Under the pieces are notes generated by a model. The model ran no database searches and was not told where the DNA came from. It saw nothing but the letters and a program-made list of their open reading frames with translations. From Magnetospirillum sp. WYHS-4 (lineage in GTDB: Bacteria; Pseudomonadota; Alphaproteobacteria; Rhodospirillales; GLO-3): a stretch of DNA of 37,303 bases. Position numbers and translations under genes: made by a program. Shown here in pieces: positions 387-23,394 of this stretch. Each line of letters opens with the position of its first letter. The stretch's first letter is position 1. The stretch is from positions 1-37,303 of the forward strand of contig JAMOBD010000026.1 in assembly GCA_039908345.1 (NCBI GenBank), written 5' to 3'.

Positions 387-2164
387 GGCCTGACCTCGAA
401 CAGCCGGTATCCGGAGGCCGTCCCGGATGGACGCTCGCCCTCCTGCAGCCAGTCGGGCGGCCGATTCTCCAGCAAGCGCCGGTAGAGCAGGCCGGAACGG
501 TCGCCGTCGCCCGGCCGCGCGAAATGGTTGCCGCCATAATCGGAGCAAATCAGGATGCTGTCCACCCCCCGCTCCGCCATCCGCCGCCTGGCCTCGCCAT
601 CGTCCTCGGCCCGCATGATAAGGACGGAATCGGCGATGCCCCGGTGGTTGCGGTGATGCAGGGTTGCCAGCACCGCATGGGGGGTGCGGTAGAGGATCTC
701 GGCGCCGATATTGACATCAGTGAGGACGATGCGCGGCCGGGTTCCCAGGACCCGCGCCAGATCGCCGAAGCCACAGCCCAACTGCTGGCTGGGCACGTCC
801 TTCTCGCCGTTGGCTTCCTGAAGGATGGCTCCGGCGACGGGCGGTGCGGCCAACAGGCCCAGGACGATGAGCGGACGGGCCGCGGTGCGCAGGCCGGGGC
901 TCCGCCAGGTGTCGATGCGGCGGTCCAGGAAGCCGACCAAATCGGCCAGCGGCAGGCAGAAGAACAGCCCCGCGTAGGAAGCCCAGCGCAGCCATTCCAC
1001 GGTCATCGCGCCGAACAGCAAGGTCCCCGCGGCGACGAACATCCAGGGCCAGAACCCTTCCGTCCCCCGGACCAGCCACAGCCGCCGTCCCAACATGGGC
1101 AGGGCCAGCAGGCCCGAGCCGAGATAGACGAGAAAGCCGCCGAAGCCGCCGACGGGCTGGTGTTCGATGATCTGGACCAGGACGCCTTCTGCCAAGGCCG
1201 GGATGTCGCCGACGGTGCCGGGAACCAGCCGCGGGGACAAGACGAGAAGCGCCGCGAGAACCGCCCCCCCGGTCCCCAGCCCCGCGCCCAGCCGGCGGAC
1301 GGGCCCGTCCGGCCGCCAACGGGCGAGAACCTCCCAGGCGAGGACGAGCAGTCCCGCGAGAACCAAGTGAAGGGCCGAGATGCGGTCGGTCTCCAGCACC
1401 GCCAGGCCGGCCGGTCCCCGTTCGGCCAGCAAGGCCATGCCGATGCCGGCCAGGAAGGCCAGGGAAAGGGCCCGCGCCCTTTCCACCCCCCGCGGCTCGC
1501 CGGCCACCCAGGCCAGGCCGCAGACGGCCAGCGCGAGCCCCAGGACGGCCAGGAACTCGACGCCGACCCACAGGCCGAACGCGATGGCGAAGCCCGCCGC
1601 CACGGCCCCGCCCCGTTCCGCGGGGCCGAAGGATCTGGTCAAGGCGCCCAGCACCAGGACGACGGTCAGCAGATAGAGGGCATGGTGGTCGGCGACCCCC
1701 CAGCCCATCAGCGCCATGGTGCCCATCTGGGTGACGCCGATCGCCGCGGCCAGCGCCGCCCCGGCGCGCCCCAGCAAGGGAACGGCAGCCCAGGCCAGGG
1801 CAAGGGCTGTCGATACGTGCACGAGCGGACTGACCGCCAAGCCCGCCCAATGGATGGCGCGGGCCGGCCCCAGGAAAGGTTCGAGCGGCATCGCCAACAG
1901 CAGCAGTAGAACGTCCAGCGGTCGCGTCCAATGGGATTCGAAGCCGAAGGGAGCGTTGGCACGCCGCTCGACGCCATCCAGCCAGTTGCCCGTCTCGGCC
2001 AGATTCAGGACGCGCACCAGGCGCAGATAGCCGTCGCCGTCGGCGAAGCGCTCGAAGACCATGGCCGGGTCCTGGGCGAGGACCAGAACGCCGTGGATCA
2101 TGGCGACGAAGGCCGCCGCCGCCAGTCCGGGCAATAACCTGCTACGCGAAGGCTTACCTTCCAT
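383..2164 (-). CDS. polytopic membrane protein, GT-C glycosyltransferase-like (paralogue 1)
   Basis: A 593-residue protein with many hydrophobic segments in its first three quarters and a soluble C-terminal part. ATG at 2164 is chosen over the GTG nine bases upstream because AGGAGG at 2173-2178 lies 8 bases before it, whereas the GTG overlaps that site. An acidic motif, DGDGY (residues 42-46), follows the first membrane segment, and a second motif, ADHH (158-161), lies in a later loop. This layout recalls GT-C enzymes such as STT3/AglB and mannosyltransferases, which use an acidic first-loop motif and lipid-linked donors; that assignment is inference. The C-terminal domain has ILYRT, LHHRN and HFARPGD, all shared with the neighbour. 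It overlaps the downstream adaptor gene by 4 bases. Sure of the gene; function unproven. Confidence 0.75.
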   Translation of the reverse strand: MEGKPSRSRLLPGLAAAAFVAMIHGVLVLAQDPAMVFERFADGDGYLRLVRVLNLAETGNWLDGVERRANAPFGFESHWTRPLDVLLLLLAMPLEPFLGPARAIHWAGLAVSPLVHVSTALALAWAAVPLLGRAGAALAAAIGVTQMGTMALMGWGVADHHALYLLTVVLVLGALTRSFGPAERGGAVAAGFAIAFGLWVGVEFLAVLGLALAVCGLAWVAGEPRGVERARALSLAFLAGIGMALLAERGPAGLAVLETDRISALHLVLAGLLVLAWEVLARWRPDGPVRRLGAGLGTGGAVLAALLVLSPRLVPGTVGDIPALAEGVLVQIIEHQPVGGFGGFLVYLGSGLLALPMLGRRLWLVRGTEGFWPWMFVAAGTLLFGAMTVEWLRWASYAGLFFCLPLADLVGFLDRRIDTWRSPGLRTAARPLIVLGLLAAPPVAGAILQEANGEKDVPSQQLGCGFGDLARVLGTRPRIVLTDVNIGAEILYRTPHAVLATLHHRNHRGIADSVLIMRAEDDGEARRRMAERGVDSILICSDYGGNHFARPGDGDRSGLLYRRLLENRPPDWLQEGERPSGTASGYRLFEVRP

Positions 2165-2176
2165 CGTCGGCACCTC

Positions 2177-3949
2177 CTAGTCGGACACAACCCGGAACAG
2201 GCGGAAGGGCAAGGCGGACGGCAGGGGAAGTTCCCGCGCCCATTCGGGTCCCCGCCCGTCTTCCAGGCGCCGGTAGAACAGGTCGGGGCGCCCCTTATCG
2301 CCCGGCCGGGCGAAATGGTTGCCGCGCGATCCGGGGCACAGGGCGATCAGGTCGATGCCGCGGCGACGCAGTTCGGCCCCCGCCTCTCCTTCGTCCTCGG
2401 CTCTCAGGATGCGCAGGCTGTCCCGCATCCCCTCCTTGTTGCGGTGATGAAGCGTGGCGACCACGGAATGGTCGGTCCGATAGAGAATCTCCGGTCCGTC
2501 GTTGGCCGCGGCAAGAACGGTATGCGGTCCCGGCCCCGCCTTCTCCTCGCCCAGGAGTTCCACCAGACGGGCGGTCGGGCAGGACACCCCCTTTGCGGCC
2601 TCGGGCACCAGCAGGCCGCCCAGCAGCAGCGGCCCGACCGCCAGCCCGAACCCGCCAGCCAGCTTGGCCGGCAGGCGCCAAAGGCGGGCCGGCCGGGCTT
2701 CCAGCCAGCGATCGAGACGCAGAAGCGCCTCGGCCAGGAAGGGACAGGCGAATATCTCCGCATAGACGGCCCAGCGCGCGAAACTCTGAGCGAGAACCAT
2801 ATAGACCGCGAGCGCCGCCGCCAGCAGGCACCAGGCCCGGAAGGCCGGCCGCCCCCATTCCTCGCGCAGCCTGAGGTAGGCCACGGGCAGGCCGATCAGA
2901 CCCGCCCCCAGGTAGGCAAGGAAATTTCCCATATCGTCGATGGCCGCATATTCCTCGACCGTTTCGAAGATCAGGAAGGTCTCCGGATCGAAGGCCGCCT
3001 TCGGGCCCAGAAGAAGCTGGGGAAAGATCGCCGCCATGGCGCCGGCGACGGCAACCGCCGCGACCGCCGCGACCGCCAGCCTCCGGGACGGATGGGCCAG
3101 CCAAGGGGCCCGGCGCTCCAGCCCGGACAGGACCGCCCAGGCCACCGATACCAGGAGGGCGAAAACGAGATGGATGGCGGAAATCCGGTCTTGCTCGACC
3201 AGCCCGAAGCCCGTCCAGCCCCGGTCGAGAAGCAGGGCGAGCGCCAGTCCGCCCAACAGGGCCAGGGACAGCGCCCGCAGCCGCCCCGCCCCCGCCGGGT
3301 CCCCCGCCACCCAGACCAGCCCCAGCACGACCAGGACCAGCGCCAGGAAGACCAGCATCTCGGGCCCGGCCCAGAGGCCCAGGGCGAAGGTCAATCCCGC
3401 GGCGACGGCCTCGCCGGCCCCCGAAGAAGGTCGGACCAGGGTGCGAAGGGCGAATCCGAGGGCCAGCACGGTCAGCAGGAGAAACAGGAAATGATGGTCG
3501 GCGATGCCGAAGCCGCCCAGCTTCGCCAGTCCCACCTGCAACGCGCTCAGACCGCCCGCCAGCGCCGCCCCCACGCGCCCCATCGACGGTGCCAGCGCCC
3601 AGACCAGGGCCACGGCCGTCAGGACGTGCAGCAAGGGGCTGACCAGGACGCCGGCCGCATGGACCGACTGGGAAAGGCCCAGAAAGGGAAGGAAGGGCGC
3701 CGCCAGAACGGCCAGCAGGACGTCGAAGGGCCGGGTCCAATGCATGACCAGGCCGAAGGGGGCATTGGCGCCGGGAATCAGGTTGTCGTACCAAAGGCCG
3801 GTTTCCAGCCACCGGGTGACGCGAAGCAAGCGAAGATAGCTGTCGCCGTCGCCGACGATTCTTCCCCAGTCCGCGGGATCGCCGCCCCCGGCCAGCGCCC
3901 CATGCATCAGGGCCACGAACAGGGCCACCGCGAGATAGCTCGTCGTCAT
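2177..3949 (-). CDS. polytopic membrane protein, GT-C glycosyltransferase-like (paralogue 2)
   Basis: A 590-residue membrane protein clearly paralogous to the next gene downstream. Both share an early GDGD(S/G)Y motif (here residues 33-38), NAPFG near residue 62, HWTRP(F/L)DVLL, an ADHH motif (150-153) and a C-terminal soluble region with EILYRT, ATLHHRN and NHFARPGD. ATG at 3949 is chosen because GGAGGAAGC precedes it directly; the 28 extra upstream codons lack a ribosome site. The stop codon TAG (2177-2179) lies partly inside the Shine-Dalgarno sequence of the next gene, so the pair is probably coupled. A tandem pair of GT-C-like proteins next to an export adaptor suggests synthesis or decoration of an exported glycan or lipid, but donor and acceptor are unknown. 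Confidence 0.75.
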   Translation of the reverse strand: MTTSYLAVALFVALMHGALAGGGDPADWGRIVGDGDSYLRLLRVTRWLETGLWYDNLIPGANAPFGLVMHWTRPFDVLLAVLAAPFLPFLGLSQSVHAAGVLVSPLLHVLTAVALVWALAPSMGRVGAALAGGLSALQVGLAKLGGFGIADHHFLFLLLTVLALGFALRTLVRPSSGAGEAVAAGLTFALGLWAGPEMLVFLALVLVVLGLVWVAGDPAGAGRLRALSLALLGGLALALLLDRGWTGFGLVEQDRISAIHLVFALLVSVAWAVLSGLERRAPWLAHPSRRLAVAAVAAVAVAGAMAAIFPQLLLGPKAAFDPETFLIFETVEEYAAIDDMGNFLAYLGAGLIGLPVAYLRLREEWGRPAFRAWCLLAAALAVYMVLAQSFARWAVYAEIFACPFLAEALLRLDRWLEARPARLWRLPAKLAGGFGLAVGPLLLGGLLVPEAAKGVSCPTARLVELLGEEKAGPGPHTVLAAANDGPEILYRTDHSVVATLHHRNKEGMRDSLRILRAEDEGEAGAELRRRGIDLIALCPGSRGNHFARPGDKGRPDLFYRRLEDGRGPEWARELPLPSALPFRLFRVVSD

Positions 3950-4126
3950 GCTTCCTCCGCAACTCGCGCCCAGCCGTTCCCAGGGGGCGGAGAGTCCTGC
4001 CAAGGCGGGTTTCTGCGCCTTTCGCGATGGCACGCTGCAAGGTTTCGATCTACACTAGGCCCCGTGCCCGTCCGTTGTCGCGGATGTGGACCGGCGGGGT
4101 GCGTCAACACCGCCGCCCGCCCTGAC

Positions 4127-4156
4127 CATAACTGACCTTCTACGGAGGTAGTTATG
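4127..4156 (+). promoter_or_regulatory. hairpin covering the ribosome site and start codon of a micro-ORF
   Basis: CATAACT-G-ACCT (4127-4138) and AGGTAGTTATG (4146-4156) are complementary over 11 base pairs, with a single bulged G at 4134 and a 7-base loop. The right arm holds part of the Shine-Dalgarno sequence GGAGGT (4144-4149) and the entire ATG start codon (4154-4156). In RNA the stem would hide the initiation region, as in RNA thermometers and translational operators; as DNA it could instead be a protein-binding dyad. The pairing is seen directly; regulation is inference. Confidence 0.5.
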
Positions 4157-4240
4157 ACTATCCATGACTTTAGCCCAAGCCCTTCCTTTTCCCAAGCGCC
4201 GCCCATCGGCGTCAAGGGGATTGGCATGGCCGCGGGTTAG
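4154..4240 (+). CDS. possible 28-residue small protein
   Basis: An ATG preceded by a near-ideal Shine-Dalgarno sequence (GGAGGT, 4 bases before the ATG) opens a 28-codon frame ending in TAG at 4238-4240. The peptide begins MTIHDFSPSPSFSQAPP and ends in IGVKGIGMAAG: Ser/Pro-rich at first, then Gly-rich and slightly hydrophobic. It has no obvious signal peptide or membrane helix and I recognise no family. The quality of the ribosome site and its pairing in a hairpin are the only evidence of expression. It could be a small protein, a leader peptide without a following plus-strand gene, or chance. Confidence 0.35.
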   Translation: MTIHDFSPSPSFSQAPPIGVKGIGMAAG

Positions 4241-4352
4241 GACGGGGGCGGGGTGGTTGCCGATTCAGAAATCGTAATTGCCCCCCCGGTGACGGATGTC
4301 ATGCAGCAAGCGGCAGTGAGGTTCCGTCAAGGGTGAGCTTGATGGCGTGTCG

Positions 4353-6977
4353 CTAACAGGCCCCGTGCCGCCCGGCCGGAAGCCTGAACAGGAAGGTGCT
4401 GCCTCGGCCCGGTGTCGATTCGACCCAGATATGGCCGCCATGCCGTTCGACGATCTTCTTGCAGACCGCCAGACCGATGCCGGTGCCTTGGTATTCCCGA
4501 CGGTCATGCAGGCGCTGGAAGATCATGAAGATGCGGTCGAAGTCTTTCGGCGCTATGCCGATACCGTTGTCGCGCACGGAAAAAATCCAATCTCCCCCGC
4601 AGTGACGGGCCTCGATCCGGATTTCCGGCCGACCATCGGGCGTTCGGTACTTGAGCGCATTGCCGATCAGGTTCTGGAACAGGCTAATTGCCTGGGAACG
4701 ATCGGCAGGCAGGGTGGGAAGGACGCCGACATCGACGACCGCCCCCGATTCCGTGATGGACGCACGAAGGTTTTCCAGGGATTCCTGGAGCACGGGATTG
4801 AAATCGGTGGGCTCGATCTTCTGGCCGCGGGTACCGACGCGGGAATACTCCAGCAGGTCCCGGATCAACCGCTGCATGCGCCCGGAGCCTTCGACGATGA
4901 AGGCGATGAACTCGTCGGCGTCGTGATCCAGATGACCCTTGTAGCGGCGGGCCAAAAGCTGCGTATAACTCGAAATCATGCGTAGCGGCTCCTGGAGATC
5001 GTGGGAAGCGACGTAGGCGAACTGTTCCAGTTCCCGGTTGGAACTCAGCAGGTCCTCCTCCATCTGCTTGCGTTTGGCGATGTCGAGCCCCATGCCGATG
5101 ACGCAGCCTTCCGCTCCCAGGTCGCAACGCCGTCCGGTGAAATAATAAGGGATGAGCCGTCCGTCGGCGGTGAGCAGCGGAGCTTCGGTTTCCGCGTGGC
5201 CCTTCTCCAGAACCTCGGCAATCTTCGCGGCGATCTTGGGACGTTCCGGGTCCGGGAACAGATCGACGGGCGATATATGGGCAATTTCGTCGCTGCTGTA
5301 GCCGCTGACGATCTCGAGATTCTGGTTCCACAGCCGGAATCGGTTGCCTTCGCTGATCAGGTAGAAGATGCCCGGCAGGCTGTCGATGGCGGTGCGGACG
5401 AAATCCCGTTCGCGCCGGACCGCATCCTCGACCGCCATGCGTTCCGAAACGTCGCGGAACACGACGACGGCCCCCACCAGGCTGCCGTCATCCTCGCGCA
5501 CCGGGGTCGAGAAGTACTCGACCGGAAACGATGTCCCGTCCTTGCGCCAGAAGACCTCGCCCTTGATCTCGTGGGTAATGCCCTTCCGGTAGGAACCGTG
5601 ATTCGGGCAATCGTCGGCTGGATAGGGGCTGCCGTCGCCATGACTGTGATGGATGATCGGGTGGATGGGACGCCCCAGCAGTTCCGCCGCATCGAAGCCC
5701 AGCATGCGGGCGCCGATGGGATTGATGAAGGTGGCGCGGCCCTGGGTGTCCAGCCCATAGATGCCTTCGCCGACCGAATCGAGCAGTAGCTTGTTCTGGC
5801 GGGCCAGGCGTTCGATGGCGGCATCGGCCGTCCGCCTTGCCGTGATGTCGCGCAGATAGCCGGTGAAGAATGGCTTTTCGCCTGTGTTGTGGACCACGGT
5901 GATGGCGAGTTCCACCGGGAACTCACTGCCGTCGTAGCGCAGGGCGGTCAGTTCCAGGCGCTTGTTGAGCGCCTGTCCCTTCCCGGAGGCGATGAAGCGC
6001 TTCAGGCCCGCGTCGTGCGCCGCACGATGGGCCGGGGGAATGATGGTCTCGGCCAGAAGCTTGCCGATCACCTTGTCGCGCGGGCACCCGAAGGTATGCT
6101 CTGCAGCCGGATTGAACTCGACGATCCGGCCTTCCGAGTCCATGGTCACGATGCAATCGAGGGCCGTGTCGATCACCGACCGGAAACGGGCTTCGCTACG
6201 CTTGAGTTCCTCCTCGGCCGCCTTGCGCTCGACGATGCCGGCCAACCCACTGGCCATGGTTTCCAGGAAGCGCTGCTCCTCCTCGCACCGGGGGTGGCCG
6301 GCGGCGACATAGATGTTGAGGACCCCGAGCAGCTTGGCGCCGCTGGCAATCGGTACGCAGTAATGGCCGTGCGACGGCATGCCGTCGTAGGTGATGGTAT
6401 GGTCGTGGTCCACCTCGTTGCAGAAGACGACTTTTCCGGTGGCGGCGGCGCGACCGCAGTGGCAGGTGCCGAAGGGAACCCGAGCGCAGGAATCCAGTAT
6501 CGTCTGGCCGATGCCATGCTGGGCCCGCATGGTCAGCATCCCCGGCGATTCAACCACGAAGATGCCGCCTTTCTGGTCCAGGGACAGGTAGGGGACACCG
6601 ACGATCAATTCCAGGGCCTTCTGGAGCATCTCGTCCAGGGACAGGGAATGCAGGGACAAGGCGAGGACATCGTTCAGGACGCGCTGGTAGGCCAGGTTGT
6701 GGGTCAGGCGATCGCTGCTCTGGCGGAGTTGCTCGCTGGCTTGGCGCAATTCCTCCAGCAAGTCGCGCTCCTTGCGCGCCTGGTCGACGCCGTAGGGGCG
6801 CACGACCCAGAAATAGGCCAAGGGAACCACCAGAACCGGCAGGGCCAGCGCGTCGAACAGGACCTCCTGCCACGCCGAAAGCCATCCGGGCACGCCAAGG
6901 ACGAGGAAAGCCATCAACAGGCTTTCCACCCCGAAGACGATCACCGCAAGTCGCAAGGCGACCTTCGTCAATCCCAT
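4353..6977 (-). CDS. membrane-anchored GAF-PAS-PAS-PAS sensor histidine kinase
   Basis: An 874-residue sensor kinase. Two N-terminal membrane helices (about 8-29 and 39-60) are followed by a charged coiled coil (63-95), a GAF domain (about 110-255, with CHCGRAA and DHDHTITYDG), three PAS domains (about 265-385, 390-505, 510-635) and a kinase core. The H box is ASHDLQEPLR with phospho-acceptor His659. The N box reads QNLIGNALKYR, the G1 box VRDNGIGI and the G2 box GTGIGLAVCKKIVERHGG, so the enzyme looks intact. The His-DLQEPLR type H box is that of phytochrome-like and bacteriophytochrome-related kinases (HisKA). The GAF insert with C-H-C and D-H-D-H might bind a metal or cofactor, which is speculation. 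No response regulator is adjacent, so it is an orphan kinase. Confidence 0.95.
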   Translation of the reverse strand: MGLTKVALRLAVIVFGVESLLMAFLVLGVPGWLSAWQEVLFDALALPVLVVPLAYFWVVRPYGVDQARKERDLLEELRQASEQLRQSSDRLTHNLAYQRVLNDVLALSLHSLSLDEMLQKALELIVGVPYLSLDQKGGIFVVESPGMLTMRAQHGIGQTILDSCARVPFGTCHCGRAAATGKVVFCNEVDHDHTITYDGMPSHGHYCVPIASGAKLLGVLNIYVAAGHPRCEEEQRFLETMASGLAGIVERKAAEEELKRSEARFRSVIDTALDCIVTMDSEGRIVEFNPAAEHTFGCPRDKVIGKLLAETIIPPAHRAAHDAGLKRFIASGKGQALNKRLELTALRYDGSEFPVELAITVVHNTGEKPFFTGYLRDITARRTADAAIERLARQNKLLLDSVGEGIYGLDTQGRATFINPIGARMLGFDAAELLGRPIHPIIHHSHGDGSPYPADDCPNHGSYRKGITHEIKGEVFWRKDGTSFPVEYFSTPVREDDGSLVGAVVVFRDVSERMAVEDAVRRERDFVRTAIDSLPGIFYLISEGNRFRLWNQNLEIVSGYSSDEIAHISPVDLFPDPERPKIAAKIAEVLEKGHAETEAPLLTADGRLIPYYFTGRRCDLGAEGCVIGMGLDIAKRKQMEEDLLSSNRELEQFAYVASHDLQEPLRMISSYTQLLARRYKGHLDHDADEFIAFIVEGSGRMQRLIRDLLEYSRVGTRGQKIEPTDFNPVLQESLENLRASITESGAVVDVGVLPTLPADRSQAISLFQNLIGNALKYRTPDGRPEIRIEARHCGGDWIFSVRDNGIGIAPKDFDRIFMIFQRLHDRREYQGTGIGLAVCKKIVERHGGHIWVESTPGRGSTFLFRLPAGRHGAC

Positions 6978-11477: not shown

Positions 11478-14400
11478 ATGGCCGCCAAGCGGCACCCCTT
11501 GCTGGAAAGACAACTGGCGCGTGCCCAACGTGGCCGGCAGGACGGTATGCCGGACCTGGAGCGCCTGCTCGACATGGTCAGCCAAGCCTACGAGGAGACG
11601 GATCGCGAACGTCATCTGTCGGAGCGTGCGCTGCAACTCATGGAGGATGAGCTGCGGACCGCCAACACCCGTGTGCGCCAGGAGGCGGAAAACCTGGTCA
11701 AGACGGTGCTGGAGAACGTTGGCGATGGCGTGGTGATCGCTAGCGAAGATGGTATCATCGAGGGAACCAACAAGGCGGTGGAGGCCATGTTCGGCGTGTC
11801 CTCCGCCGAATTGACCGGCCAGAACCTGAAGGTTCTGATGCCGGAACCCCATGCCGGGGAACACGACGCCAGGATCGCCGACTACCGAGCCGGTGGCCCG
11901 CCCAAGGTGGTCGGCCGCATACGGGAGGTTCCCGCCAGACGCGCCAACGGCGAAATATTCCCCATCGAGCTGGCGGTGGGCGAGTTGGTGCGAGCCGATG
12001 GCCGGCGCTTCATCGGCATCCTGCGCGACATCACGGAGCGTCGGCACGCGCAACAGGAACTGCGGGACAGCGAGCAGCGGTTCCGCGATTTCGCGTCGGC
12101 TTCCTCCGACTGGTTCTGGGAAATGGATGCCGACCTGAGATTCACCCGCTTCCTCGGCAACTACGAGTCAGTTCTGGGCCCCGGCGGCGATCGGGCCGTC
12201 GGCAAGACCCGCAACGAAATCCTCGATTTCAATTACGATCCGCAAGGTTGCCTGAGCCACTTGGCCGACATCGATGCGCGGCGGTCGTTCCGCAACTTCG
12301 TCTACCGTACCCGCGATGCAGCAGGCCATCCCGCCTATCTACGGGTCAGCGGCACGCCCCTGGTGGACGATGACGGCACCTTCGTGGGCTACAGGGGGAC
12401 GGCCACCGATGTGACGGCCGAAATGGCGGTGGCCGAGCAGGTGCGCAAGCTGACCACGGCGATCGAGCAAAGTCCATCGATCCTGGTCATCACCGACGTC
12501 CGCGGCATCATCGAGTACGTGAACCCCAAGTTCACGGAGGTTACCGGGTACGACGCGGAGGAAGCCATCGGCCGGTCGACCAACATGTTGCGCTCAGGCC
12601 ATACCCAATCCGATACCTATTCGGCCCTTTGGAGGACCATCCAGGAAGGGCGCGAGTGGCGGGGCGAGTTCCTGAATCGTCGCAAGAACGGGGAGTTCTA
12701 TTGGGCTTCCATGCTGATCGCGCCCATCGTCTCGCCCTTGGGCGAGATCACCCATTACGTCGCGCTGCAGGAAGACATCACCGAACGCAAACGGGCGGAA
12801 GAGGCCCTGGCGGAAAGCGAACGCCGCATCCGCCGCATCCTGGAAACTTCCAACGAGGGCTTCTGGGTGATCGACAACGCCGGCTGCACGGTCGAAGTCA
12901 ATCCGACGATGTGCCGCATCCTGGGCCGGCGGCGCGAGGAGATCGCCGGGCGGAGCATCTTCGATTTCGTCGACGAAGCGAACGCCGCCGTCTTCCGCTT
13001 CCAGGTCGAACAACGCATCAAGGGCAAGCACGGGGCCTATGAAGTGGAACTGCGCCAGCCGGACGGAGCCAACGTGCCTTGCCTGTTCAACGCCTCGCCC
13101 CTGCTGGACGAACAAGGTGCCATGGTCGGTTCCTTTGCCCTGGTGACCGACATCGCCGACCTGAAGCAAACCCATGCGGAACTGCAGCGCGCCAAGGAGG
13201 CAGCGGAAATCGCCAGCCGGGCCAAGTCGGAATTCCTGGCCACCATGAGCCACGAAATCCGCACCCCGATGAACGGAGTGATCGGCATGACCGGTCTGCT
13301 GCTGGACACCGAGTTGTCCACCCAGCAGCGCCACTTCGCCGACACCATCCGCGAGTCCGCCGAGTCCCTGTTGGCCATCATCAACGATATCCTCGACTTT
13401 TCGAAGATGGAAGCCGGCAAGCTGGAACTGGAGTCGGTGCCCTTCGATCTGCTGAATCTGGTGGAAGGCGTGGCCGATCTGCTGGCACCGCGGGCACATG
13501 CCAAGGGGATCGAGATTTCCTCCTACCTGCCTTTGCCCTTGCAAGGAGTTTACCAGGGCGATTCCGGACGACTGCGCCAGATCCTCATCAACCTGATGGG
13601 CAACGCGGTGAAGTTCACCGGAAAGGGCGCGGTAGGATTGGAAGTGCTGCCGGGCGGTGCCAGCGACACGCTGCGCTTCAATGTCCGGGATACCGGAATC
13701 GGTATTCCTGCCGATGCTCTCGATCGGCTGTTCACCAGTTTTTCCCAGGTCGATGCTTCGACGGCCCGCCGCTACGGCGGGACGGGCCTCGGGCTGGCCA
13801 TCTGCAAGCGCCTGGTCGAAGCCATGGACGGCCGTATCGGCGTGGAAAGCCGGCTCGGAGATGGGAGCCTGTTCTGGTTCGAGATTCCTATCGAGAAGGT
13901 GGGCGAATCCCAACGTCAGGTTCCGGCCGATCAGGCCGACGTCCTGCGGAACCGGCGGGTCCTGGTGGTCGACGACAACGCCACCAACCGCGAGGTGTTC
14001 CTGCGCATGCTGGGATCCTGGGACGTGCCCTGCCAGGCGGCGGGAGACGCGACCATGGCGCTCGGATTTCTGCGCCAAGCCATCAAGGAGGGGCGCCCGT
14101 TCCAGACCCTTCTGCTCGATGTGCACATGCCCGGCATGTCGGGCATCGATCTGTTGCACGTGTTGCGCGGAGACCCGACCTTCAAGGGGCTCTGCGTGAT
14201 CGTGGCATCTTCCCTGCAGGGGGCGGATATCCGCAGGGAAATCGACGGCGTCGGCGTCGATGGATATCTGGTCAAGCCGATCCGCCAGTCGGCCCTGTTC
14301 GACGTGCTGGTCAGCGCCAGCAACGCCCGGACCGTGCAGGCGGCGCCCCGGACAGGCAGCCCAACGTCGGCGGTGGGTGCGGCGCCCGGGGCATCCCGGT

Positions 14401-18316: not shown

Positions 18317-18880
18317 CTATCTGTCGTTCAGGTCGATCAGGGTGTTCAGCAGGGCGATATCGCGCCGCACACGCTCGACATCGTGCTCGAACCAAAGTTT
18401 TCCGAAGCGGCCCACGCCATCGGCCTCGCCATCCCTGCTTGCCAGTTCGCTCATGCAGGCCGCGACCAGCCCCTCGAGAAGGCGCCGCCGATCCGCCCGC
18501 CCGATCAGGTCGATATAGTCCAGCTTCAATTTCAGCCCGATCCGCCCAATCGCCGTGGCCGGACGCGGAATCGGCCGACCAAGGAGAAAGAGAAAGGTCT
18601 GGTGCCCGGTCGGCGTGAGAGCCAGCCGATGGCCGCCGTCGGTCCGATCTTCGGCAGCTTCCAGATGCCGTCCCTGCCGCATGGCGTCGATGCATCCGCC
18701 GACCATATCGACAGCCGATGCCCCGAATCCGGAGGCCAGGTCCGCGAGGTAGGCACGAACCTCCCCGAGAGGTGCCGGCCCTCGGGCGGCCCGCCCCAGG
18801 GCCGCCAGCCAGATGAAGTCCCGGACGTCCACCGAGCGATCCCGATGGATCTCGACGGGCACTTCGGCGATGGCGTTCAT
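18317..18880 (-). CDS. putative winged-helix (PadR-like) regulator
   Basis: A 187-residue soluble protein starting at an ATG with GAGGAA a few bases upstream. Residues about 20-100 could form a winged helix: a hydrophobic helix (DFIWLAALG), a segment before a wing, and LALTPTGHQTFLFLL, which resembles the wing-to-dimerisation transition of PadR regulators (LTPxGxxxxxxL). The C-terminal half (LDYIDLIGRADRRRLLEGL, then a helical end) fits a dimerisation helix. Assignment to PadR is by pattern only. It is transcribed divergently from mamD, and the shared 255-base gap holds palindromes suited to autoregulation or to control of mamD. It could equally be an unrelated hypothetical protein. Confidence 0.5.
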   Translation of the reverse strand: MNAIAEVPVEIHRDRSVDVRDFIWLAALGRAARGPAPLGEVRAYLADLASGFGASAVDMVGGCIDAMRQGRHLEAAEDRTDGGHRLALTPTGHQTFLFLLGRPIPRPATAIGRIGLKLKLDYIDLIGRADRRRLLEGLVAACMSELASRDGEADGVGRFGKLWFEHDVERVRRDIALLNTLIDLNDR

Positions 18881-18905
18881 GATTTCCTCGATGAAATCGT
18901 ATTGC

Positions 18906-18921
18906 GACTTACTTGCAAGTC
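18906..18921. promoter_or_regulatory. palindrome upstream of the putative regulator
   Basis: GACTTACTTGCAAGTC contains the perfect 10-base palindrome ACTTGCAAGT (18911-18920) and an outer GACTT/AAGTC repeat. It lies 26-41 bases before the start codon of the minus-strand regulator, in a local AT-rich stretch, as expected for an operator. Confidence 0.45.
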
Positions 18922-19018
18922 ATTTTGCGCTTATTGCCATGCCCTCCCCCCCTCTGTCAAGACGGCCTTACCTCTTCGGTATGGCCCGACGAACGAAGTG
19001 AAATTCTTTCCCGCTCTG

Positions 19019-19037
19019 TCCGGACGGGTCCGGACGG
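19019..19037. repeat. short tandem direct repeat upstream of mamD
   Basis: TCCGGACGG occurs at 19019-19027 and again at 19029-19037, a 10-base period. Each copy contains the palindrome TCCGGA. It abuts the larger inverted repeat at 19039-19066 and may be part of the same control region. Confidence 0.5.
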
Positions 19038-19038
19038 T

Positions 19039-19066
19039 GCATGGTCAGACATGGCATTGACCATGC
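19039..19066. promoter_or_regulatory. perfect 9-bp inverted repeat, candidate operator of mamD
   Basis: GCATGGTCA (19039-19047) and TGACCATGC (19058-19066) are perfect inverted copies separated by 10 bases, giving 19 bp between arm centres, nearly two helical turns. The right arm overlaps the -35 box TTGACC (19057-19062) of the mamD promoter. A dimeric repressor bound here would block RNA polymerase; this is inference from geometry. Confidence 0.65.
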
Positions 19067-19086
19067 AGGTCTTGCGGGTTTAGTAT
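19057..19086 (+). promoter_or_regulatory. sigma-70-type promoter of mamD
   Basis: TTGACC (19057-19062) and TAGTAT (19081-19086) are spaced by 18 bases, both close to the housekeeping consensus. Transcription would start near 19093, leaving a leader of about 43 bases that holds the ribosome site GGGGTGGG before ATG at 19136. Confidence 0.6.
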
Positions 19087-19135
19087 CCCCCATCGTCGGG
19101 TGCTTTTGGGCGTTATTCAAAAGGGGTGGGAAATT

Positions 19136-20065
19136 ATGGTGGCGGAAATCGTTATGGCCCAGGTCGATGGGGCAACCCAAGCTGCGCAGCTTGCGGCGCT
19201 TGCCGGCAACACCTACACCGTTGGCAACGTCTCGACTTCCGGCCAGGGATTGGGGAGTTGGCTGTTTCTGACGCCTGATGGGGGCGCTGGCAGCACCGTC
19301 GCCCTCAAGCTGGAAAGCGCCCGCCAAGTGACGGAGCTCTCGGCCTTGGTTGGGAAGTCGGTCACCGTGGCAAAGGCTCCCGTCGTAACTGGTTCCACCG
19401 TGGGGAAATGGTTGGTCCTCAAGCCCCTGGCCGGTGGTACGGTCAAGGCCGCGGCCGCTGGGTCGTCGCTGTCTCTGCTCCAGTTGGAGGGGGCCAAACA
19501 GGGGCTTCATGCCTCTTCGTTGGTTGGAAAGACCTTCACGGTCATCAATCCTCCGATGCTCGGCAAGGGCGCCAGCAAATGGCTATTCCTCCAGCCTGTC
19601 GGCGGCGGCGATATCGTTGCCCTGAAGACGGCCGATGCGGCTTCTGCAACGAGCTTCCTTGGCAAGACGGTGACCGTGGGCAAGGCTCCGCTGATGGCGG
19701 GAGATCCCGGCACCACTTGGCTTGCATTGAAGCCGGTGGCAAGCGCGACGGCGACCAAGGCAACGGCCAGCGGTTCGGCTTTGGCTAAGGCTGCGGCCTT
19801 GACCAAGCCGGCGGTAGGGCTGTCGAAGATCGCCGTCGGCAGCGGCAAGGCGATTGTTGGCGCCACGGCAGTGAAAACTGTCGCGGCGGGAACCATCTGG
19901 ACAGGAACGGGCCTCAGCTTGGGGCTAGGCCTGGGCCTAGGTGCCTGGGGGCCGGCGTTGCTCGCCGGTGTGGTCGGCCTTGCCGGCTACGGTTATTACC
20001 GCAATCGGCGCGCCCGGGCGGAAGGCGACGATATGATCGAGGCCATCAATGAAGCCACGGGATGA
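19136..20065 (+). CDS. mamD: magnetosome protein MamD (Mms7), LG-repeat family
   Basis: A 309-residue protein, close to the usual length of MamD. ATG at 19136 has a G-rich ribosome site (GGGGTGGG) just upstream. The C-terminal part has the family hallmark: GTIWTGTGL (252-260), then LGLGLGLGAWGP (262-273) inside one membrane helix (about 259-288), a basic patch (RNRRARA) and an acidic tail (EGDDMIEAINE). In Mms6, MamD and MamG this segment places the protein in the magnetosome membrane and the acidic tail is thought to touch the magnetite crystal; the MamGFDC proteins control crystal size (established). The N-terminal two thirds contain four repeats of about 44 residues (4-47, 54-97, 111-154, 158-200), each ending WLxLxP, followed by an Ala/Lys-rich linker. 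The usual neighbours mamG, mamF and mamC are absent. Confidence 0.88.
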   Translation: MVAEIVMAQVDGATQAAQLAALAGNTYTVGNVSTSGQGLGSWLFLTPDGGAGSTVALKLESARQVTELSALVGKSVTVAKAPVVTGSTVGKWLVLKPLAGGTVKAAAAGSSLSLLQLEGAKQGLHASSLVGKTFTVINPPMLGKGASKWLFLQPVGGGDIVALKTADAASATSFLGKTVTVGKAPLMAGDPGTTWLALKPVASATATKATASGSALAKAAALTKPAVGLSKIAVGSGKAIVGATAVKTVAAGTIWTGTGLSLGLGLGLGAWGPALLAGVVGLAGYGYYRNRRARAEGDDMIEAINEATG

Positions 20066-20088
20066 ACAGGTCTCGCGCCGACAACGAC

Positions 20089-20124
20089 GGCACCGGTTCC
20101 TGGGCGCCTCGGATTGCCGGTGCC
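20089..20124. terminator. possible hairpin between convergent genes
   Basis: GGCACCGG (20089-20096) and CCGGTGCC (20117-20124) form a perfect 8-bp stem with a 20-base loop between the 3' ends of mamD and the minus-strand gene. No T-run follows on either strand, so intrinsic termination is doubtful. Confidence 0.3.
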
Positions 20125-20139
20125 GGTCTCGCCTTGGCA

Positions 20140-20790
20140 TCACCGGGTCATGCCGCCCCGGATTAAGCTGAAGACGGCGACCAGGGCCTTCTTCAGAGTG
20201 GCGCGATCATTGGTCGCGTCCGGAGGGGGCAGTTGCTCGAAGGTCCAGATGGCCAGCAATCCATCCTTCAGGATGTCCGCGAGGGCGTGCGCTTTGGTAT
20301 CCGAGTCGTGGGAGAGCCACATCGCGGCGAGTTCGGTTGCCCTCTTCTCGACGCTATCCACTTCATGAGTCGTCTTACCCTTCATCAGCCCGTAGACCAA
20401 CTCATTGGGGTCGTTCGAAGTGCGGCGGGGGTGGGCGCTATCATAAACCAATATGGCTAGAACGCCGTTTCCTGCGATTTCCCGAAGCACACGGTCCGCA
20501 GCCTTATCCCCGTGCCCGTGAAACAGCTCGGCCAGATCATGTGCGTTCTTTTCGATATCCACCTTAGTAATATGCCTTCTGAACGACTGGTATGGCTTGC
20601 GCGCCTTTTTCGACTCTCCGAGAAATTTTGAAATCTCCGTACTGTTCTCTCCACTATTTTGCTCATCGCCCTCCGATGATCCGCCGACATTCTGATTAGG
20701 CTTACAGACGGGCTGATCGATTCGTTCGTCACCCAGGCTCCGGTCACGGCGACGCAAAGGAATGCCTTGTTTGCCTCCTATGCTGCGCAT
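20140..20790 (-). CDS. unknown protein with an internally duplicated helical domain
   Basis: A 216-residue soluble protein of no family I recognise. The first 70 residues are polar, with an acidic/Asn-rich stretch (residues 35-52) and then a basic stretch. Two related halves follow: residues about 74-138 and 142-212. They share VDxxEK, (D/E)LAxxx, a helix ending NGVLAILVYD / DGLLAIWTFE, a loop with TSNDP / ATNDR, and a final helix ending LMKG / LIRG. The start is uncertain: the ATG at 20790 lacks a good ribosome site, and an AGGAGG lies 12 bases inside the frame, too far before any good start. It is 25 bases downstream of the small membrane-protein gene on the same strand, so the two probably form an operon. 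Base composition is less GC-rich than in flanking genes, hinting at transfer. Confidence 0.65.
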   Translation of the reverse strand: MRSIGGKQGIPLRRRDRSLGDERIDQPVCKPNQNVGGSSEGDEQNSGENSTEISKFLGESKKARKPYQSFRRHITKVDIEKNAHDLAELFHGHGDKAADRVLREIAGNGVLAILVYDSAHPRRTSNDPNELVYGLMKGKTTHEVDSVEKRATELAAMWLSHDSDTKAHALADILKDGLLAIWTFEQLPPPDATNDRATLKKALVAVFSLIRGGMTR

Positions 20791-20815
20791 GATGAATAGC
20801 CGCTAAAAAAGTAAT

Positions 20816-21280
20816 TTATCGCCGATCCATCCAATTGGAGACGCGCTTCCCAACCCATCTCCATGTACCTGCCAGGGGATATTCCACCTGGATTCTTTCC
20901 ATCCCCATGTGGGAAATGGCCTGCTCGAAATCCTCAGAAGTACGGTTTGCCAGTCTGGATGCAGCATTCCTGACGGAATTCCAAAACTTGAATGGAGTGT
21001 CTCCACCTATTCTTCTTGCTCTGCCATGATCGCTGTTGCGTCGGACGGAAGAGTGGCGCCTCGCGATTATTACGGCCCCTCCGAGCAAGGCCAATCCGGC
21101 CAGCGGAAGAAGAACCCCTCCCCCTAAAGACCAGGTCCCCACCTTGACGGAAAAAAAGGCCAAATTTTTTCCGGTCCCCCCAAATGCGGTTGTCATTACC
21201 TTCGCCCCAGTCTTTCCCAGCACGGCCGTACCCTTCCCATCCCATCCCAATGAAAATGGCCCCCCAGCGAGCCGATCCAT
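20816..21280 (-). CDS. small membrane protein with GTW + Gly/Leu-rich helix, possible magnetosome-associated protein
   Basis: A 154-residue protein if started at ATG 21280 (MDRLAGG); upstream in-frame codons look random (Cys/Arg/Ser-rich) and are left out. No strong ribosome site precedes this ATG, so the start is tentative. Residues 1-45 are rich in Gly, Thr and Lys. GTWSLGGG (48-55) leads into one membrane helix (about 52-73, VLLPLAGLALLGGAVII), then a basic patch (ARRHSSVRR). The order GTxW, Gly-rich lead, Leu/Gly helix, basic patch matches the tail of MamD/Mms6/MamG, though the regular LG pairs are missing and the rest of the protein (a polar C-terminal 75 residues) is different. It stands two genes from mamD. 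Membership of the magnetosome set is inference; it could be an unrelated membrane protein. Confidence 0.55.
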   Translation of the reverse strand: MDRLAGGPFSLGWDGKGTAVLGKTGAKVMTTAFGGTGKNLAFFSVKVGTWSLGGGVLLPLAGLALLGGAVIIARRHSSVRRNSDHGRARRIGGDTPFKFWNSVRNAASRLANRTSEDFEQAISHMGMERIQVEYPLAGTWRWVGKRVSNWMDRR

Positions 21281-21605
21281 TCTAAGTAAAGATGACGACT
21301 GGTGCCAGCAGATACGTCGCGGGTTATGGGAGGCGCGGCACCTTGGCCGTGATGAGGCAATGATGCAGGAAGAAGTGGCTCCTCGCGCGACAGCCGGCCA
21401 TCGCCCAACCGCCCCACTACTTCTTCCAACCGCATCACGCGGACCTCCGATAGCACTCTGCACCGACCCATGGACGCCCCTTCTCTGGAAGTCTTCCAGG
21501 ATCGCTCACATCATATGCTACGGACACAAGATTCGTTCCCGCTCTTGATTTCCAGGGCTTCCTTGACTAGCTTGTTCGCAGTGTGTCTCGATTCGTGGGC
21601 GTGTC

Positions 21606-21722
21606 ATGACCCGAATGGGTGATTTCAGGACGGGGACCAAGGCGACCGCGTCAGCGGTGCGCCCGCACGCCCAGGCCGCTCGAAGCGGCATTCCCGGGGT
21701 CCTGCGACTTAGGTGCCCCTGA
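21606..21722 (+). CDS. possible 38-residue leader peptide upstream of leuA
   Basis: ATG at 21606 opens a 38-codon frame ending GVLRLRCP and a TGA at 21720-21722. The stop codon lies inside the left arm (CCCCTGA) of the outer stem of the leuA leader. Such an arrangement would let a translating ribosome disrupt the structure. Only scattered Leu codons (CTG, CTT) precede the stop, not a Leu run, and no strong ribosome site is present, so this is weak. Confidence 0.25.
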   Translation: MTRMGDFRTGTKATASAVRPHAQAARSGIPGVLRLRCP

Positions 21723-21793
21723 GCGCCGCTTGCGCGCCCCTCCGGTTTGGGCGCGGCGGACGTTCAGGGGATGCGAGCCGCTATTCGCGGCTC
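21675..21793 (+). promoter_or_regulatory. structured RNA leader of leuA
   Basis: Several perfect stems lie in a row. GCCGCT/AGCGGC (21675-21689) comes first. A nested element follows: CCCCTGA (21716-21722) with TCAGGGG (21764-21770), CCGC (21726-21729) with GCGG (21756-21759), and CGCGCCC (21733-21739) with GGGCGCG (21749-21755). The last is GAGCCGC/GCGGCTC (21775-21793), 44 bases before the leuA start. No T-run follows any of them. An attenuator, a riboregulator or a mRNA-stabilising leader are all possible. Confidence 0.5.
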
Positions 21794-21837
21794 CGCGAAC
21801 CTAAACGCAGATCATCAGGACCCGAAGGAACAGACCC

Positions 21838-23394
21838 ATGACGACCGCCAAGGACCCCAACCGCATCATCATCTTCGACACCACCCTGCGCGACGGCGAG
21901 CAGTCGCCGGGCGCCTCCATGAACCTGGACGAGAAGGTCGCCATCGCCGAGGTGCTGGAATCCATGGGCGTGGACGTGATCGAAGCCGGCTTCCCCATCG
22001 CCTCGGAAGGAGATTTCGAGGCCGTCCATGCCATTGCCTCGCGCATCCGGAAGTCCACCGTCTGCGGCTTGGCCCGCGCCACCAAGGGCGACATCGAACG
22101 CTGTGCCGATGCCATCCGGCCCGCGCCGCGCGGGCGCATCCATACCTTCATTTCCACCAGCCCCCTGCACATGAAGTACAAGCTGCAGATGGAGCCGGAC
22201 AAGGTTTACGAGCGCATCATCGAAAGCGTCACCCTGGCCCGCCAGTTCACCGACGACGTGGAATGGTCGGCGGAAGACGGCTCGCGCACCGACCACGACT
22301 TCCTGTGCCGCTGCGTCGAGGCCGCCATCCGCTCCGGCGCCCGCACCATCAACATTCCCGACACCGTGGGCTATGCCATCCCCGACGAGTTCGGCGCCTT
22401 GATCCGTATGCTGTTCGACCGGGTGCCCAACATCGACCAGGCGACCATCTCGGTCCATTGCCACAACGACCTGGGCTTGGCGGTCGCCAATTCCCTGGCC
22501 GCCGTGTCCAATGGTGCCCGCCAGGTGGAATGCACCATCAACGGACTGGGTGAGCGGGCCGGCAACGCGGCCATGGAAGAAATCATCATGGCCCTGCGCA
22601 CCCGCCACGACCGGATGCCTTTCGTGCATGGCGTCGACACCACCCAGATCATGCGGGCCTCCAAGCTGGTGTCCAACGTCACCGGCTTCCCGGTACAGCC
22701 GAACAAGGCCATAGTCGGCGCCAACGCCTTCGCCCACGAGTCCGGCATCCACCAGGACGGCATGCTGAAGCATGCCCAGACCTACGAAATCATGACCCCC
22801 GAGTCGGTGGGCCTGAACAAGTCGACCCTGGTGCTGGGCAAGCATTCCGGCCGTGCCGCCTTCAAGGATAAGCTGAAGATCCTGGGCTACGAACTGGGCG
22901 ACAACGCCCTGGAGGATGCGTTCAAGCGCTTCAAGGACCTGGCCGACAAGAAGAAGGAAGTCTTCGACGAGGACATCGTGGCCCTGGTCGACGATACCGT
23001 GTCGCGCATGTACGACCGCCTGCGGTTGATCTCGCTGGGTATCGCCTGCGGCACCACCAAGCGTCCGCCCGAGGCGGTGCTGGAATTGGACGTGGACGGC
23101 GAGCGCCGCGCCACGACCGCCACCGGCGACGGCCCGGTCGATGCTGCCTTCAAGGCCATCAAGGAGCTGTTCCCCCACGAGGCGCGGCTGAAACTGTATC
23201 AGGTCCATGCCGTGACCCAGGGCACCGACGCCCAGGCCGAGGTCACGGTCCGCCTGGAGGATGAAGGCCACCAGTCCCACGGCTACGGGGCCGATACCGA
23301 TACCTTGGTGGCTTCGGTGATGGCCTACCTGAACGCGCTGAACAAATTGCTGGTGCGGCGCGAGAAGACCGCGCCGGCCGCCCTGTCGGCGTGA
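21838..23394 (+). CDS. leuA: 2-isopropylmalate synthase
   Basis: A 518-residue cytoplasmic enzyme that condenses acetyl-CoA with 2-ketoisovalerate, the first committed step of leucine synthesis. The N-terminal TIM barrel begins with the signature FDTTLRDGEQSPGASM (about residues 13-28). The metal-binding HCHND motif is present (SVHCHNDLGLAVANSL), as are NGLGERAGNAAMEE and SGIHQDGMLKH. The C-terminal LeuA allosteric domain (about 390-510) includes GDGPVDAAFKAI and the end segment that binds leucine for feedback control. Length matches the family's short form (LeuA type 1). ATG at 21838 has GAAGGAA a few bases upstream. A structured leader precedes it and a strong hairpin follows, so it is probably transcribed alone ahead of the mre operon. 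Confidence 0.97.
   Translation: MTTAKDPNRIIIFDTTLRDGEQSPGASMNLDEKVAIAEVLESMGVDVIEAGFPIASEGDFEAVHAIASRIRKSTVCGLARATKGDIERCADAIRPAPRGRIHTFISTSPLHMKYKLQMEPDKVYERIIESVTLARQFTDDVEWSAEDGSRTDHDFLCRCVEAAIRSGARTINIPDTVGYAIPDEFGALIRMLFDRVPNIDQATISVHCHNDLGLAVANSLAAVSNGARQVECTINGLGERAGNAAMEEIIMALRTRHDRMPFVHGVDTTQIMRASKLVSNVTGFPVQPNKAIVGANAFAHESGIHQDGMLKHAQTYEIMTPESVGLNKSTLVLGKHSGRAAFKDKLKILGYELGDNALEDAFKRFKDLADKKKEVFDEDIVALVDDTVSRMYDRLRLISLGIACGTTKRPPEAVLELDVDGERRATTATGDGPVDAAFKAIKELFPHEARLKLYQVHAVTQGTDAQAEVTVRLEDEGHQSHGYGADTDTLVASVMAYLNALNKLLVRREKTAPAALSA

Follow-up and report, generated by a model that had tools for sequence, protein, structure and literature searches.

The gene at positions 19136 to 20065 of the window, by which we mean the whole stretch of DNA analysed, a single contig of 37.3 kb (C26), encodes a MamD protein, likely of the islet type, by which we mean the side of the MamD tree on which the AMB-1 islet gene lies and not that of the mamGFDC operon. 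We think it likely that this protein is encoded alone, possibly under a promoter of its own, and that it acts as a limiter of membrane growth that is targeted by a MamF-like protein and cut by MamE. The lineage is alphaproteobacterium-like and probably magnetotactic, and no mamGFDC operon turned up in it. The gene is the only over-cut-off mamD of the assembly and not a second copy, and it was probably not torn from a mamGFDC operon. Such an arrangement is instructive without being a new kind of system. The window takes in the entire contig, with genes past the contig ends lying outside its view, and the features to which the argument refers are these:

18317..18880, reverse strand: AphA-like transcriptional regulator (PF14557, E=1.8e-21, by Pfam), divergent from mamD
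19057..19086, forward strand: promoter-like site TTGACC-18-TAGTAT upstream of mamD, a consensus match only
19120..19130, forward strand: ribosome-binding-like sequence AAAGGGGTGGG, 5 bases before the mamD ATG at 19136, read directly
19136..20065, forward strand: mamD, islet type, from profile score, tree and repeat analysis
20140..c.20625, reverse strand: small protein with two repeats, convergent with mamD, its start codon not fixed, from the open reading frame, its repeats and its relatives
21838..23394, forward strand: leuA, by comparison the edge of a conserved leuA-mreB-rodA block, a flank outside the mamD system

The mamD reading frame is intact and its product of 309 amino acids matches the NCBIfam model MamD (NF040916) at 303.6 bits against a cut-off of 100 (E=1.5e-90), with residues 3–306 aligned to positions 2–313 of the 318 in the profile, which bears out the identity proposed in an earlier, sequence-only reading of this DNA; the same profile has matches in none of 14 control genomes. 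The Mms6 and MamG models reach 48.4 bits (cut-off 200) and 26 bits (cut-off 100), both below threshold, and their matches run through the common C-terminal part of the protein. Four tandem repeats of about 50 amino acids each make up the N-terminal part, all six repeat pairs scoring above every one of 500 shuffles, and they are followed by an alanine-rich linker, a membrane helix built from GTIWTG and the LG-repeat, a basic patch and an acidic tail. This C-terminal anatomy, also part of the earlier reading, is confirmed by direct reading of the sequence, which gives, in order, AAGTIWTG, LGLGLGLGAWGP, YRNRRAR and EGDDMIEAINE, with the hydropathy peak at residues 261–284. An AlphaFold model, weak at a mean pLDDT of 52 from 3 sequences, presents four beta-alpha-beta-beta units and a final helix at 272–307; comparison with solved structures returned no relative (best E=0.18), and Pfam gave a sub-cut-off match alone, to FlgD_tudor (E=0.0076). 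Three promoter-like sites were found in 18700–21900, against 0.8 (sd 1.0) in shuffles, and the one at 19057..19086 suggests that mamD may have a transcript of its own.

Around mamD the contig is free of the genes with which the family usually travels. No MamC-, MamF-, McaA- or McaB-like and no further LG-type open reading frame was found on C26 (frames of at least 50 amino acids, E<=1e-5), leaving flanks clear of mca, mamF, mamC and LG genes of 19.1 kb before and 17.2 kb after mamD, and the absence of mamF and mamC beside the gene, as first noted, thus extends over all 37.3 kb. The possible regulator of the earlier description turns out to be the AphA-like factor, and the leucine and cell-shape genes that it placed beyond mamD are indeed there as leuA and mreB. 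Its two unknown genes fared differently. The small gene at 20140–20625(-) has relatives elsewhere, with matches in 4 of the 317 genomes of the order at E<=0.001, strong only in the mamD-bearing genome itself and in G181 (4e-17), the others standing at 3.0e-4 and 8.6e-4; in G181 some 1.9 kb separate the relative from that genome's MamD, and a second relative in the genome studied here lies on C32 between an apparent MerR-type regulator and kdp genes. Pfam returned for it a sub-cut-off match only (E=0.12). Its product holds two copies of a motif like RAxVLxEIxxDGxLAMWVxExLPP, seen also at L090 4283–4732(+) and L105 9251–9757(+), and a small two-repeat gene of this kind occurs near mamD in two families. 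The other gene, 20816–21463(-), looks non-coding: as a candidate second LG-type membrane protein it found no support, with a coding score of -119 bits on a codon-usage measure trained on 17 genes, on which low scores are possible for foreign genes too, and among the compared loci its sole match is a short frame on C56 (L008 18587–18880(-), E=5.4e-4), possibly a chance one.

The frame at 20816–21463 falls in a low-GC stretch of about 1 kb (window about 20600–21600) that separates the small gene from leuA, where GC drops to 0.525 and no frame carries a coding signal by host codon usage. Such apparently non-coding DNA beside mamD, together with the contamination estimate of 2.76% for the assembly, is what could be cited for C26 being a contaminant or for mamD being a decayed relic without function. 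Both are very improbable in our judgement: leuA (81%) and mreB (94%) match G001 best among the genomes compared, and the order from leuA to rodA is kept in G001, the sole other genome of the same family that appeared; the mamD frame is intact, is preceded by a ribosome-site-like sequence and has a coding signal of +60 bits under host codon usage; and the genome has other magnetosome genes, with mamD its only MamD. We also considered leuA as a landmark for an empty site and set it aside, since G001 is without MamD but the DNA upstream of its leuA differs, and no insertion can be dated from it.

The assembly is a draft of 3.65 Mb in 172 contigs, listed as 100% complete with the contamination given above, and its magnetosome genes are spread over four of these contigs (C26, C56, C68 and C75), a separation that does not measure distance, as C56, C68 and C75 could be neighbours. 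C56 holds a mamAB-like cluster with candidate MamE, MamM, MamN and MamO, together with one MamF-like protein. At the start of the contig an Mms6-like gene, scoring 106 bits against a cut-off of 200, runs off the contig end, and the MamF-like gene, single copy in the assembly, follows between it and mamH. Going by their order, we take the genes after the MamF-like one to be mamH, E, J, K, L, M, N, O, P, A, Q, B, S and T; the assignments of MamK and of the Mms6-like and MamF-like proteins are also backed by sequence searches, and in the candidate MamE the motifs NYHVV, DLALLKI and GNSGGP are present. On C68 lie mcaB and mcaA (E=2.7e-64 and 1.2e-236), and on C75 feoA and feoB stand beside an LG-motif gene near the contig end. 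Because of the mamAB cluster on C56, the feoAB genes with an LG gene on C75 and the mcaB-mcaA pair on C68, the host organism is, judging from its gene content, probably magnetotactic.

Three LG-type loci (on C26, C56 and C75) are found by the MamD model, and one of them, mamD on C26, is over the cut-off. A second MamD copy, sought throughout the assembly, was not found over the cut-off, and the suggestion that the gene on C26 might be a duplicate with a new role is not supported. The MamG model gives the LG proteins of C56 and C75 25.6 and 37.5 of the 100 bits set as its cut-off, both below it. MamC was not found anywhere in the assembly by profile search at E<=1, a model that recovers a relative's MamC at 146.8 bits and that at E<=1 has weak matches in 8 of 14 control genomes, with 0 of 14 over the cut-off; the sole MamF-like gene is that on C56, and the lack of mamF and mamC neighbours first seen beside mamD has in this way been followed through the genome. 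Of the two outcomes that the earlier reading named as refuting it, mamGFC directly outside the window and a protein outside the MamD/Mms6 clade, neither was observed, the first within the reach of a window that stops where its contig does. C75 (L009 about 12680–13440) and C56 (L008 1–925) each stop at an LG-motif gene or close to one, perhaps because the assembly breaks at LG repeats, and the two contigs may be neighbours. As these contigs of a draft assembly end in or by LG-motif genes, a mamG-like gene could lie in an assembly gap; a divergent MamC could also have been missed.

The phylogeny of MamD bears on whether this mamD descends from an operon of the mamGFDC type. The full-length MamD tree comprises 39 sequences, here called rows, 37 from the order and 2 gammaproteobacterial, its groups being named after the sequences were seen. 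Six over-cut-off rows are omitted, G161, G162 and G164 of the operon type and G156:C85, G160:C255 and G169:C72 of the islet type, each scoring close to a row that was kept, as are the split or short G156:C71, G127:C117 and G189:C17; the tree of the N-terminal domain additionally leaves out L017. In the full-length tree the mamGFDC MamDs form a clade of 19 rows (100/100), and the C26 MamD, a row on a long branch, stands outside it as sister to the only MamD of G025 (98/94). It belongs to an islet side of 16 rows (88/82) that unites the C26 MamD, G025, the mamD-like protein of AMB-1 and the MamDs of other families. On full-length sequences its forced inclusion in the mamGFDC clade is rejected (a loss of 22.2 log units, AU p=0.018), and so is a wider grouping with the f16 and gammaproteobacterial rows included (AU p=0.028). 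The N-terminal domain alone likewise joins the C26 MamD to G025 (93/83) and leaves it outside the mamGFDC clade (100/99); there the islet-side rows form no single supported group, and the forced placement is not rejected (AU p=0.127). On these alignments a position outside the mamGFDC clade is likely, not certain.

One might still suppose that a mamGFDC operon was once present, that its mamG, mamF and mamC have since disappeared or changed place, and that mamD was left behind or relocated. MamF or MamC lies near 17 of the 19 mamGFDC-clade rows (both near 13 and MamC near 14, counts limited by the available flank and by frames of at least 50 amino acids), the N-terminal domain does not reject such a placement, and the GC dip beside mamD is what a rearrangement could leave. 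This history is nevertheless unlikely in our view, given the position of MamD in the full-length tree, the nearest row G025, in whose locus mcaA and mcaB are present and mamF and mamC absent, and the failure to find MamC in the assembly. Of the readings offered at the outset, relocation out of a mamGFDC operon is accordingly disfavoured by the full-length test though not by the N-terminal one, and a divergent lineage fits best: MamD and MamK are both missing from G001, of the same family, and the genome studied here has no over-cut-off MamD besides the islet-type one.

Across the order, over-cut-off MamD occurs in 34 of 317 genomes, several of which carry two, and a MamK match at E<=1e-60 in 36 of 317, the weakest being G113 at 41% identity. 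The two occur together in 32 genomes; MamD is found without MamK in G134 and G189, and MamK without over-cut-off MamD in G018, G064, G113 and G135. Within the same limits of flank and frame length, none of the 16 islet-side rows has MamC nearby and one (L017) has MamF, and McaA and/or McaB lie near 9 of the 16; the seven rows with neither are the C26 window, whose flanks are the longest, and L051, L053, L014, L056, L075 and L059, whose flanks are short. Both f16 rows have McaA, McaB and MamF nearby. This neighbourhood raises the possibility that islet-type MamD works with McaA and McaB in chain positioning and not in crystal size, the partners having been parted here, and the genome does keep mcaA and mcaB, on the separate contig C68. 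Against it, McaB also adjoins three mamGFDC-clade rows (L057, L058 and L082), so that linkage to mca is not exclusive to the islet type, and the parts of PMC9512821 available to us name a chain-positioning role in AMB-1 for mcaA and mcaB and none for the mamD-like gene; we hold this division of labour to be quite improbable. In G125, the genome of the L058 row, some 5 kb (L086, about 480–5700) hold mamD, mcaB, mcaA, mamF, an LG gene and mamC together, an arrangement that possibly represents an older joint mamGFDC and mca layout.

The role that we favour, that of a limiter of membrane growth, takes its targeting, cleavage and membrane-size control from papers on AMB-1 and MSR-1 and applies them to a protein whose family, repeat anatomy, lone position, single copy and candidate MamE, MamM, MamN, MamO and MamF-like partners are observed here. 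By analogy, the glycine- and leucine-rich C-terminal helix of MamD would be inserted into the magnetosome membrane with the help of the MamF-like protein of C56, the four-repeat N-terminal part would limit growth of that membrane, and the protease MamE of C56 would cut MamD and allow compartment and crystal to enlarge. For the published protein, which is the MamD of mamGFDC (PMC11332177, PMC11628618), a place in the magnetosome membrane and control of crystal or vesicle size are reported; entry is reported to need MamO and to be prevented by MamN, active MamE to proteolyse MamD, and the authors' model has MamD restrain membrane growth (PMC11332177); MSR-1 magnetosomes without MamF-like proteins are described as depleted of MamD, which each MamF-like protein restores, and the C-terminal domain of MSR-1 MamD as interacting with MamF-like proteins in two-hybrid assays (PMC11628618). 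The genome studied here has a MamD and one MamF-like protein, and MamC was not found in it; it is a natural setting for asking what partners MamD requires. In a broader and much more tentative proposal, islet-type MamD would be an older, separate alphaproteobacterial subfamily, often linked to mcaA and mcaB and including the AMB-1 islet copy, of which mamGFDC MamD would be a derived sister kept by Magnetospirillum-like lineages; here it would have turned into a unit of one gene, standing by itself and providing the whole of the MamD function.

Among known systems, the C26 MamD shares with Mms6 and MamG the GTIWTG-LG membrane tail but lies far below their cut-offs and has four N-terminal repeats. 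In the magnetotactic coccus Magnetofava australis IT-1, which has MamD and MamD-like, the gene lies near other magnetosome genes, a comparison of gene position, and a MamD outside a mamGFDC operon has been described in a magnetotactic coccus (PMC3934378). Two gammaproteobacterial MAGs contain a lone MamD among housekeeping genes (L004 10001–11215, L005 10001–11203). Like the C26 gene, these stand alone, with no mamF, mamC, mcaA or mcaB within 10 kb, in genomes with a MamK match (55% identity), so that by these sequence matches the lone MamD recurs outside the order; unlike it, their products are 404 and 400 amino acids long and form a separate tree branch. Scattered and duplicated magnetosome genes have been described before (PMC6819731), and PMC9512821 reports how mca-like genes are distributed and how the islet was deleted region by region; no lone islet-type MamD serving as the only copy was found in a limited search of literature titles and abstracts that took in few subscription journals.

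With the MamD (Mms7) of the Magnetospirillum mamGFDC operon the C26 protein shares its equivalog, NF040916, and its architecture, and it differs in falling into another full-length clade and in having neither mamF nor mamC as a neighbour. The closest comparison is with amb0400 (431795–432820; Table 3 of PMC2818848), known as mamD-like, in the magnetotaxis islet of AMB-1; its coordinates are exactly those of the gene in G161, which identifies G161 as AMB-1, and the authors of PMC2818848 group it, on codon usage, with genes of MC-1 and MV-1. Both proteins lie on the same side of the full-length MamD tree, and for neither gene is there anything mamF- or mamC-like in the surrounding 9 kb or so. 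Unlike the C26 gene, amb0400 is a second copy, lies 2.6 kb from mcaB and 3.3 kb from mcaA, and shares its islet with further mam-like genes, one of them mamF-like at a distance of about 13 kb; an islet of that type, with mamD-like, mcaA/mcaB and mam-like genes together, was not found in the flanks on C26. Because all MamD rows of f1, f9, f18, f21 and f25 fall on its side of the full-length tree, the mamD-like gene of AMB-1 appears to be no oddity of that strain, and the C26 gene stands beside it on that same side as a solitary, single-copy counterpart.
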